A stretch of 64,000 nucleotides of DNA. Source: Chrysophaeum taylorii. Taxonomy: Eukaryota; Sar; Pelagophyceae; Pelagomonadales; Pelagomonadaceae. The stretch is taken from the NCBI GenBank assembly GCA_029834535.1, contig JAQMWT010000359.1, positions 196,501-260,500 on the forward strand, read 5' to 3'. Below the pieces are notes generated by a model. The model saw only the letters and a list, made by a program, of their open reading frames with translations. It did no database searches and had not been told where the DNA came from. Positions 45,458 to 49,816 of the stretch are shown one piece after another. Position 1 is the stretch's first letter. Every line of letters begins with the position of its first letter. Made by a program: the position numbers and the translations under genes.

Positions 45458-48400
45458 ATGGTCGAGGCACTCGCTGTGGCGGCCGCAGAAAAAGTGGTGG
45501 CCACAGCGGCCACGAAGATTCTCGAGAAGCTTGAGACCTATCTGAATGGCCGCCCATCGGCCGACGAGCGCGAGACGCGTCTACGCGACCGCTTGTCCGA
45601 CCTCCGCGCCTCCCTCATCAAGCTCAAGGACCGCAACGCTCGACCGGAGGAAACGTACGTCGAGGCGCTAAAGAGGACGGAGAAAGTGGTCGAGGAAGCG
45701 ATCGAGAAGGGACTCAAGTGGAATAAGAAGTCGGGCTTTAAAAAGTGGCGCGGCGGACCCAAGTACGACAGGCTCTTCGAGGGCATTAAGTTGCGCCTTG
45801 ATGAGTGCATAAATGATCTTGGGTTTGGCGTGGTTGTCGACACGCACGGCCTGGCAGCCGACACCCACGACCTGGCAGCCGACACGCACGACCTGGCAGC
45901 CGACACGCACGACCTGGCAGCCGACACGCACGACCTGGCAGCCGACACTCACGCCGCTGTCCTCAACATGCACCATCTGGCCGCCGACACGTACGCCGCG
46001 GTCACCGGTAACCAACGCCGGGGGGGTTCCGAACAGCCGCCGATTTCAGAGCTCCGCAAGTGGCTACGTCCCGTCGACTTTGGGGCCGACATCGAAGCGT
46101 ACGAGACGCGGCACGTCGAGGGAACGCGAACATGGTTTTTTGATTCTATCAAAACCTGGAGACGCGACCTCGACGCAACGCTCTGTCGAGCGGCCGTCGC
46201 CGACGCTGGTTTCGGCAAAACGGCTATCATGTCGCACCTCGTCAAGATGATGGGCGACCGCGTTCTCGCCGTTTTCCTCTGTCGGCACAACGACCCCATC
46301 AAACGTGACCCGCGTCACATGATCACGACGCTCGCCTGGCAGATGGCGCAGAAGCTCGAGCCCTTTCGACGTATTCTCGAGCGCACGCGCGAGACGGAGG
46401 GCACGCCGGACGCCGTTTCGATCAGCACCGACGCGAGAGTACTCGCTGATCGGTTGATCTTCCAGCCGCTCAGCGAGGTGGCGTCAGAGCTCCGAGACCG
46501 CGCTTCCGACGGCCAAGGCCGGTTTGTTATTCTTATAGATGCGCTCGACGAGGCCGAGCACAACAGCAAGAATAAGCTTCTCGAGCTCGTGGCGCGCGAC
46601 TTCGCCAAGCTACCGTCGCGCTGTGTCTGCCTCCTCGTCACGGCGCGGCGCGAAGTCGATATCCGCAACAAGCTCGCGGCACTACGTCCCGACTATCTCA
46701 ATGCCGACAAGTTCGCCGCTCAGTGCGCCGACGACGTCGACAAATTCCTTCGTCAAGCGTTGGCACCATTCTTTGAGGGCATGGAGCTCGCGACCGCCGT
46801 TTCTACGATTGCCGCCAAGGCGAAGGGCTCGTTTTTGTATCTCCAGTACGTACGCGAGGGTATCGCGCGCCGTGATTTTGACTTTGACGGGTACCCCGAC
46901 GGCCTTCCCGGCGTTTATGAAAACGAACTGAGGCGCGTATTGGGCGAAGATGGACTCGGCGACGCCAACAGCGAAACGCGGCGGGTCGTCGAGGCGATCG
47001 TCACCGCGCAAGCCCCGTTGCACGTCGCGGACGATTTGCCCGGCCTCAGCGGCGTTGGCAAGGGCGAGGCTGTCGAGATTGTGCGCAGTCTCTCGCAATT
47101 CTTCCCCGTCACCGACGATGACCGAATTTCCTTTTATCACAAGTCTTTCGTCGACTGGCTCATCAGCGACGGCTACAATCGCACCTTTGACAATGATAAG
47201 TTTAAAGTCGACACCACCACCGCGCATCGTCGCCTCGCTGCGGCGTGCGCTACCTCGCTCGTACCGCTTCTCAGCGAGCAAGCGAATCGCTTCGAGAGTG
47301 ACATGCACGCGATCTACGCAATTCGCCTCACTGGCATCGTGGACGAGGGGCAGCAGCTCGCGTCGGGTCCGCGCGGGTACGCTCTGCGGTGGATCGTGAT
47401 CCACCTCCTCAAGGCTGGTCTCGAGGACGCTGGGCTCGCATTGTTGTGTTCTTTGGGATTCGTATTCGAACGAGCTGCCGAACTGCATACGCTCATCTCC
47501 GACGCTGCCTTGTTGCCTCGAGCGTCGCTGGTGCGCGACGCGTTTGTGCTAGCGCAGCATAGTGTACGCAAAGCTGGTACGTCGTGGCTTGCCGAAGAGC
47601 TGTGGCAGCGCCTTCTTCCGTGCGCTGGAGTCCGAAACGATACTGTCCGGCTTGCACGCGATGCGCGGAAAATGGCGCGCTCGGCGTTGATGTACTCGGC
47701 GCGAGAGCCATACTTCACGCCCGCCGGCTCTGCTTTGCGCTGCGTGCTGGAGGGCCACTCGGATGGGGTCAACGGCGTGACGGCCTTCGTCAACGCCGAC
47801 GGCGCGCCGCGACTCGCGAGTTGTTCTTGGGACCGGACGGTTCGCGTGTGGGACCCCGTCGCGGGCGGCGACGCGCTCCGCGTCTTTGAGGGCCACGCGG
47901 ACTGTGTCATTGGCGTGACGGCCTTCGTCAACGCCGACGGCGCGCCGCGACTCGCGAGTTGTTCTTACGACCGGACGGTTCGCGTGTGGGATCCCGTCGC
48001 GGGCGGCGACGCGCTCCGCGTCTTTGAGGGCCACTCGGATAGGGTCAAAGGCGTGACGGACTTCGTCGACGCCGACGGCGCGCCGCGACTCGCGAGTTGT
48101 TCTCACGACCGGACGGTTCGCGTGTGGGATCCCGTCGCGGGCGGCTACGCGCTCCGCGTCCTCGAGGGCCACTCGAATAGAGTCACCGGCGTGACGGCCT
48201 TTATTGACGCCGACGGCGCGCGGCGACTCGCGAGTTGTTCTCACGACCGGACGGTTCGCGTGTGGGACCCCGTCGCGGGCGGCGACGCGCTCCGCGTCTT
48301 TGAGGGCCACTCGGACAAGGTCATCGGCGTGACGGCCTTCGTCGACGCCGACGGCGCGCCGCGACTCGCGAGTTGTTCTTACGACGGGACGGTTCGCGTG

Positions 48401-49816: not shown

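Follow-up and report, generated by a model that had tools for sequence, protein, structure and literature searches.

At the end of a gene in Chrysophaeum taylorii, a golden alga (pelagophyte) and colonial photosynthetic protist, stand 14 closely similar WD40 repeats that differ mainly at a few codons. The initial annotation of the locus proposed a diversifying recognition receptor of the kind known from the HET-E, HET-D and HET-R proteins of the fungus Podospora, and the question is whether the alga has such a receptor and how far the resemblance goes. We analyzed the gene within a window of 64,000 nucleotides (contig C359:196501-260500 of a 70.8 Mb genome; positions are those of the window), along with its relatives in the same genome. 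Among the papers listed by searches of the open-licence PMC literature, none was seen to describe such receptors in pelagophytes, and the published account of the C. taylorii genome (PMC10366177) does not use the term 'NLR' in its main text.

Architecture of the receptor gene

The features of the gene and of a degraded tandem copy upstream of it are collected in Table 1. The top protein match of the receptor is CTAYLR_003848 of C. taylorii (100%), a 2419-aa NCBI model that joins the degraded copy and the receptor in one protein, and because of this fusion the public gene model is probably wrong. The match bears out the pelagophyte-like alga that the initial annotation had guessed. The real start of the receptor is uncertain, as NCBI models start at other places. 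A long antisense ORF (47549-49000) appears to be a side effect of repetition and base composition. Elsewhere in the window lie an FG-GAP repeat protein (22622-24661, - strand), a flavoprotein (52180-52929, +) and a DnaJ protein (53005-54534, +), and no further receptor was found among the seven window ORFs scanned. Relatives sought in viral contigs gave one pattern match, and none was confirmed.

Table 1 Features of the receptor locus (window positions)
Feature	Position	Strand	Details
Degraded upstream tandem copy	41932..44310	+	2 WD units; broken across several frames
Receptor gene	45458..49816	+	single open frame, 1452 aa; first ATG 45458, stop 49814-49816
MLKL_N-like four-helix N-terminal domain	45566..45853	+	residues 37-132; Pfam PF22215, hhalign, model
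21-bp tandem repeat, 5.5 copies	45838..45953	+	codes (DTHDLAA)n linker
NACHT / NPHP3_N NTPase domain	46121..46648	+	PF24883, E 2.1e-17, above cut-off
Walker A (GFGKTA)	46208..46225	+	G251, G253, K254, T255, A256 invariant in six-sequence alignment
Walker B region (DALDE)	46538..46552	+	D361, L363, D364, E365 invariant in six-sequence alignment
14 WD40 units of 138 bp	47750..49681	+	one frame; hypervariable unit positions 5, 6, 8, 27, 29
C-terminal tail	49682..49813	+	ends in WD-like motif

The N-terminal domain resembles MLKL_N. When the first 281 residues were scanned, PF22215 (MLKL_N) matched at E 3.2e-5 and 23.9 bits, which is under the Pfam cut-off of 27; the degraded sister copy reaches 31.8 bits, above it. 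Set against three MLKL_N domains from this genome, the domain reaches an hhalign probability of 96.9%, a value derived from two clear domains and one that is sub-threshold in the whole protein, with few sequences on both sides. A model places four helices at 2-29, 37-58, 65-90 and 101-125 with low to moderate confidence, and a search of the domain alone against PDB sequences returned, apart from chance matches, just one designed helical protein (E 0.001). By analogy, this domain is a candidate membrane or cell-death executioner. The heptad linker encoded by the 21-bp repeat sits between the helical domain and NACHT, and is absent from the frame of the paralog C44.

Both Walker motifs of the NACHT domain are intact. 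Searched against the PDB, a low-confidence model of the N-terminal half of the protein (mean pLDDT 60.1) hits six entries at E <= 0.001: 8bob (titled maltose system, and presumably MalT), Avs3 twice, MLA13 from barley, the NRC3 resistosome and CED-4, all of which we read as STAND/AP-ATPases. From rank 7 onwards the search lists other AAA+ ATPases, such as Cdc6. Pfam recognizes 14 WD40 stretches, and a comparison of the receptor with NCBIfam returned no family at E <= 0.001. With an effector-like N-terminus (a weak match to MLKL_N helices), an NTPase carrying Walker A and B, and C-terminal repeats, the C359 gene is, judged from its sequence, a STAND/NLR receptor.

The WD40 array and its variable positions

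The units begin at 47750 + 138k (n = 14) in one open frame, and the initial annotation was correct on their span, number and exact length of 138 bases. Its description of them as near-identical is slightly too strong, since pairwise identity averages 89.5% for DNA (range 78-96%) and 82.7% for protein (67-94%). The homogenization that it had noted even at silent sites is confirmed for all codons other than the five it named as variable (pS 0.091); those five lack it (pS 0.379). Across the 14 units, entropy is highest at position 6 (2.52 bits), 27 (2.50), 8 (1.84) and 5 (1.81), and the residues originally named for positions 5, 6 and 27 match the array exactly. Lower values are found at positions 20 (0.99 bits), 15 (0.86) and 29 (0.73); position 46 gives 1.26 bits, or 0.96 without the degenerate end of unit 14, and the remaining positions are invariant or deviate in 1-4 units.

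The variable set 5, 6, 8, 20 and 27 that was first proposed holds for four of its positions. At position 20 the units merely alternate between two states, CCG and CGG; it was rejected as a face site, since the model puts it where strand b begins, behind the a-b loop and by topology remote from the variable face. Position 29 had been overlooked; it is constant in 12 of the 14 C359 units and clearly variable in C44. The five most variable positions (among the first 38) of C44 and C359 overlap in four cases (hypergeometric p = 3e-4), and distinct residues at positions 6, 8, 27 and 29 are carried by 28 of 33 units, a set that includes five units of the degraded relative C351. These five enter only the entropy, combination and neighbour counts, and no count draws on the two units that remain in the degraded copy upstream. 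Within the C359 array, pN/pS is 1.21 at positions 5, 6, 8, 20 and 27 and 0.47 elsewhere, which on its own is suggestive, not decisive. As a check against artefact, made on assembled sequence, a different 14-unit array is present at the second locus, C44; according to PMC10366177, the genome was sequenced with Illumina, Nanopore and PacBio.

Modelled with AlphaFold (mean pLDDT 72.7, pTM 0.59, five sequences), the array shows strands a (7-14), b (20-26), c (30-34) and d (44-1) in all or almost all of the 14 units. In this model the d-a loop holds positions 5 and 6, position 8 is among the first residues of strand a, and 27 and 29 occupy the b-c turn. Both loops lie on one face in the HET-E model described in PMC1805685, and all five positions are thus predicted in or beside the loops of one propeller face. 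Of positions 5, 6, 8, 20 and 27, for which the initial annotation had suggested checking by structure prediction whether they form one surface, all but 20 are placed at this face by the model. A search of the array model against a fold database returns 2ymu, a highly repetitive propeller, as its first match, with Apaf-1 also listed, but global superposition on 2ymu is poor. At a pTM of 0.59 and a TM of 0.41 against 2ymu, a closed ring of 14-15 blades, or any given number of blades per ring, would be conjecture, and the C-terminal tail may perhaps, at low confidence, form a 15th cryptic blade.

Paralogs, selection and unit exchange

Searching the genome with the part of the receptor that precedes the WD40 units returned 29 matches. 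Of the relatives, C44 is intact and carries its own array of 14 units, C351 is degraded and has 5, and the degraded upstream copy is 73% identical to the receptor in the N-domain and 92% identical in the main NACHT stretch. A sister clade, whose NACHT is about 40-45% identical, comprises C396, C454 twice (C454a and C454b), C165, C599 and C528, the last two being broken across frames. Its N-terminus differs from the MLKL_N-like type and weakly resembles DisA/DAC (best Pfam DAC match E 0.0059, 16.6 bits against a cut-off of 27; three of four members at E <= 1); a sequence comparison of this N-terminus with the PDB gave chance matches only, and we treat the DAC-like reading as a lead. C28 (L040, C28:2000-11500) encodes PNP_UDP_1-NACHT-WD40 (PNP_UDP_1 E 2e-7, above the cut-off); its repeats are strongly diverged, without homogenization. 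Two metagenome relatives bear the precomputed Pfam label PF03496, which from its name we take to be an ADP-ribosyltransferase family.

Related NACHT cores thus bear different N-terminal domains. A tree of 17 NACHT regions, seven from the genome itself and ten from protein matches, was built without C599, C528, C351, the upstream copy, P0004, P0010, P0016, P0019 and HET-E; it unites the seven own-genome rows with P0003, P0011 and P0012 in a ten-row group at 99/99, and four fungal rows stand apart. P0003 (from a metagenome-type source; NACHT 45% identical) has poorly conserved WD units, so homogenization is not general in the group.

MLKL_N matches occur at 15 places in the genome, 11 of them above the cut-off. 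Downstream of one (C25:18620-18919), in another frame, are about 15 near-identical ARM repeats (L056, C25:18400-22800, 1486-4251), homogenized and without strongly multi-state sites. The DAC-like domain is also found with other sensors, as in P0013 (CTAYLR_008205), where it precedes near-identical LRRs in one protein. One frame of L053 (C309:612900-619500) holds DAC-like, MLKL_N-like, ankyrin repeat, protein kinase, TPR and NACHT-like segments, and in L041 (C165:44000-51500) the DAC-like-NACHT-WD40 frame seemingly runs on into a GTPase-like segment (ROC-like by eye). Equal or nearly equal match scores at C25:18620 and C521:18626, and at C314:732904 and C8:3254, may mark haplotype contigs or recent duplications.

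Selection is seen most clearly in the tandem paralogs C454a and C454b, which still match unit for unit. Across 12 unit pairs, only 13 of 60 residues are kept at positions 5, 6, 8, 27 and 29 (dN 0.791, dS 0.160, ratio 4.96), compared with 469 of 558 in the rest of the WD region (ratio 0.41) and 622 of 755 in the N-domain plus NACHT (ratio 0.54). Identical residues number 0 of 12 at position 27, 1 at position 6, 2 at position 8, and 5 each at positions 5 and 29, whereas the neighbouring positions 7 and 26 are identical in 12 of 12 and position 28 in 11. Nonsynonymous and synonymous changes are distributed differently between the five sites and the rest (Fisher p = 3e-9, with fractional substitution counts rounded), and this contrast is significant in 5 of 5 paralog pairs (largest p 1.2e-4), which are mutually non-independent. 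At the five positions pN exceeds pS at p < 0.05 in four of the five pairs (4.9e-5, 4.3e-3, 0.010 and 0.042; the fifth gives 0.11), and for C359/C44 the ratio is 2.36 there versus 0.49.

The test is a counting method that uses only units present in both partners; 9 units were recognized in C396, 13 in C454a, 12 in C454b, 6 in C165 and 7 in C599, unrecognized ones fall in the rest, and the pair tests were made without C165, C28 and C528. Since C359 supplied positions 5, 6, 8 and 27, and C44 together with Podospora supplied 29, the out-of-sample pairs are those of C454 and C396 only. Within the DAC-type clade position 4 is variable too (C454a/b keeps 7 of 12), which makes the set of five sites inexact. 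Silent change is raised at the variable codons in three of the five pairs, strongly so in C359/C44 (dS 0.426 vs 0.139), and the evidence within the MLKL-type clade alone is weaker for it, but in C454a/b it is not raised (dS 0.160 vs 0.217). For C396/C599, dS is about threefold higher in the WD part than in the N-part (0.450 vs 0.153), so the unit correspondence of that pair is doubtful; its N-terminal part is 97% alike nonetheless, and the contrast possibly reflects conversion of one part. Together, these comparisons support the conclusion that the five face sites have been changed by diversifying selection while the framework was conserved.

Between C359 and C44 we found no unit-by-unit correspondence, the similarity being 0.938 on the diagonal and 0.939 off it (p = 0.67). 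Outside the variable codons, unit similarity is 0.949 within C359, 0.934 within C44 and 0.939 between them, and in the non-variable codons the two loci have no fixed difference and share 9 polymorphic sites. Private polymorphisms (17 sites in C359, 25 in C44) and a slight locus signature (0.942 within vs 0.939 between, permutation p = 0.017) indicate that exchange is incomplete or old. Silent divergence in the WD part is half that of the N-domain plus NACHT (dS 0.139 vs 0.276, values from a recount; p = 2.5e-5 from earlier substitution counts), and C454a/b shows no such gap (p = 0.49). Given the lost order, the shared polymorphisms and the halved WD dS on one side and the missing gap on the other, the MLKL-type copies appear to undergo concerted evolution, unlike the C454 pair. 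The C454a units are not homogenized (mean identity 54.5%, 13 units). In C44, units 9, 11 and 13 share face residues and alternate with other units, which suggests recent duplication of a two-unit block.

Interpretation and comparison with known systems

The best reading of the locus is an independently evolved, HNWD-like family of diversifying receptors. We put the probability of the whole, an intracellular STAND/NLR receptor with selection on its face, unit shuffling and a death output, at about three in four. It starts from the architecture, the paralogs, the location and fast change of the variable sites and the lost unit order described above. The WD40 array would be the sensor, with the residues around V7 (5, 6 and 8) and D28 (27 and 29) of each blade facing one side of the propeller, where diversifying selection would alter them on a conserved framework. 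In the MLKL-type copies, units would be gained by duplication, lost, or swapped inside a locus and across loci, so that new face variants come to stand in other surroundings. A bound ligand would free the NACHT domain for oligomerization, and the assembled NACHT domains would gather the N-terminal helical domains, most likely killing or disabling the cell. By analogy, the role may be against parasites or in allorecognition. The HET-E/HET-D/HET-R-like diversifying face of the initial annotation is strengthened by the paralogs, the out-of-sample selection and the placement of the sites; position 20 falls away, and the receptor is HNWD-like without belonging to the HNWD family.

We weighed three other accounts. 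In one, the family is a real set of receptors for endogenous regulation, such as organelle or developmental cell death, and conflict between paralogs drives the fast change. The present data hold no link to a parasite, and the many MLKL_N domains of the genome point to other uses of such domains, but a selected binding face, varied effectors and pseudogenes are the usual marks of immunity or allorecognition, as is established for fungal NWD genes, and we consider this account unlikely. Ordinary recent blade amplification, with loop residues drifting unconstrained and without a recognition role, seems quite unlikely: relaxed constraint gives a dN/dS near 1 where C454a/b gives 5.0, and the same five positions are affected in sister receptors whose units are unhomogenized. 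Propellers with highly repetitive blades undergo continuous amplification in every major lineage (PMC9218822), and the ARM array on C25 is homogenized too; as a rough control, however, a gapless listing of 15 of its units has no position above 1.78 bits.

Local hypermutation at the face codons, for example by a diversity-generating retroelement (DGR) or templated conversion, with selection secondary, is in our view very unlikely. It would fit variable codons that often differ at two or three bases and the raised silent change in three of five pairs, strongest in C359/C44; the unraised silent change in C454a/b speaks against it, as do third bases that vary and changes that are not limited to one template base. 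DGR mutagenesis is adenine-directed, and a DGR target is disfavoured by codon base counts that lack an adenine-directed template pattern with the other bases constant. DGRs do diversify sensors in multicellular bacteria (PMC10907252).

Returning to the HNWD-like reading, a broader version of it is tentative, and we hold it at somewhat worse than even odds. Independently of fungi, the alga would have evolved a modular receptor repertoire on one NACHT-WD40 chassis with exchangeable outputs (an MLKL-like killer, a DAC-like nucleotide domain or PNP_UDP, with ADP-ribosyltransferase-like metagenome relatives) and a face diversified by shuffling and substitution, in the service of colony-level antiviral suicide or allorecognition. 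If the main reading is true, the HET-E strategy of varying the same few blade positions and shuffling units arose again in a photosynthetic stramenopile, and an algal diversifying immune or allorecognition repertoire becomes directly testable with existing long reads and strains. Two modes of diversification on one chassis also make shuffling and point selection separable.

The Podospora WD unit is 42 aa long, that of C. taylorii 46 aa. In Podospora, codons 7, 9, 25 and 27 are positively selected around conserved 8 and 26 (PMC1805685); in C. taylorii, 6 and 8 flank V7 and 27 and 29 flank D28, and the counting method finds diversifying selection at these two pairs. The conserved Podospora residues are probably the same V and D, as their spacing of 18 is also that in the fungal units of P0005. 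Position 5, the fifth variable site, comes on top of these two pairs. At the four matching sites, distinct residue sets occur in 28 of 33 units here and in 55 of 69 in Podospora (PMC1805685). The Podospora NWD/HNWD family (PMC1805685, PMC4986451, PMC2873952, PMC12222747) shares with C. taylorii a NACHT domain with internally conserved WD40 units, diversifying selection beside conserved residues in the d-a and b-c loops, pseudogene members, varied N-terminal domains in one family and, to judge from sequence comparison, unit exchange within and between loci; here the last applies to C359/C44, with weak locus clustering persisting. The C359 unit identity of 82.7% is near the 'over 80%' of PMC12222747 and below the 85% criterion of PMC4986451. 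Unlike the Podospora genes, the sister pair C454a/b diversifies without homogenization. HNWD proteins start with HET and the receptor with an MLKL_N-like domain, in different kingdoms; the HET family is absent from the Pfam scans (the best 25 of 30 families for the whole protein, all 4 for the first 281 residues), and the receptor NACHT is 20-23% identical to the four fungal rows, among which HET-E is not included, and lies apart from them in the tree. Given the missing HET match and the separate NACHT groups, the receptor would work like the HNWD family without being a member.

Other systems share parts of this design. The structure 2ymu, which we take to be bacterial, is the top match in both the profile search and the fold search; a search with the array alone is led by WRAP-derived chains, with 2ymu not among the best 60 of 384. 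WRAP proteins adjoin STAND ATPases, and the part of PMC9218822 drawn on here describes no site-specific selection in such bacterial propellers comparable to that in C. taylorii. Fungal NLRs of HeLo/BaMLKL and PNP_UDP type carry MLKL-like or PNP_UDP N-termini, and the combination of PNP_UDP with NACHT-WD40 is common to them and C28 (PMC9815663, in whose main text 'diadenylate' does not appear); the fungal NACHT rows of the tree lie apart from those of C. taylorii. Brown algae and C. taylorii are both stramenopile algae with repeat-based candidate receptors. The LRR-ROCO and NB-ARC-TPR proteins of brown algae are diversifying candidate immune receptors (PMC11378527, which cites other work for NB-ARC-TPR) and rely on exon shuffling and alternative splicing and on NB-ARC or ROC, whereas the C. 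taylorii receptor combines a WD40 array in one frame with a NACHT domain.
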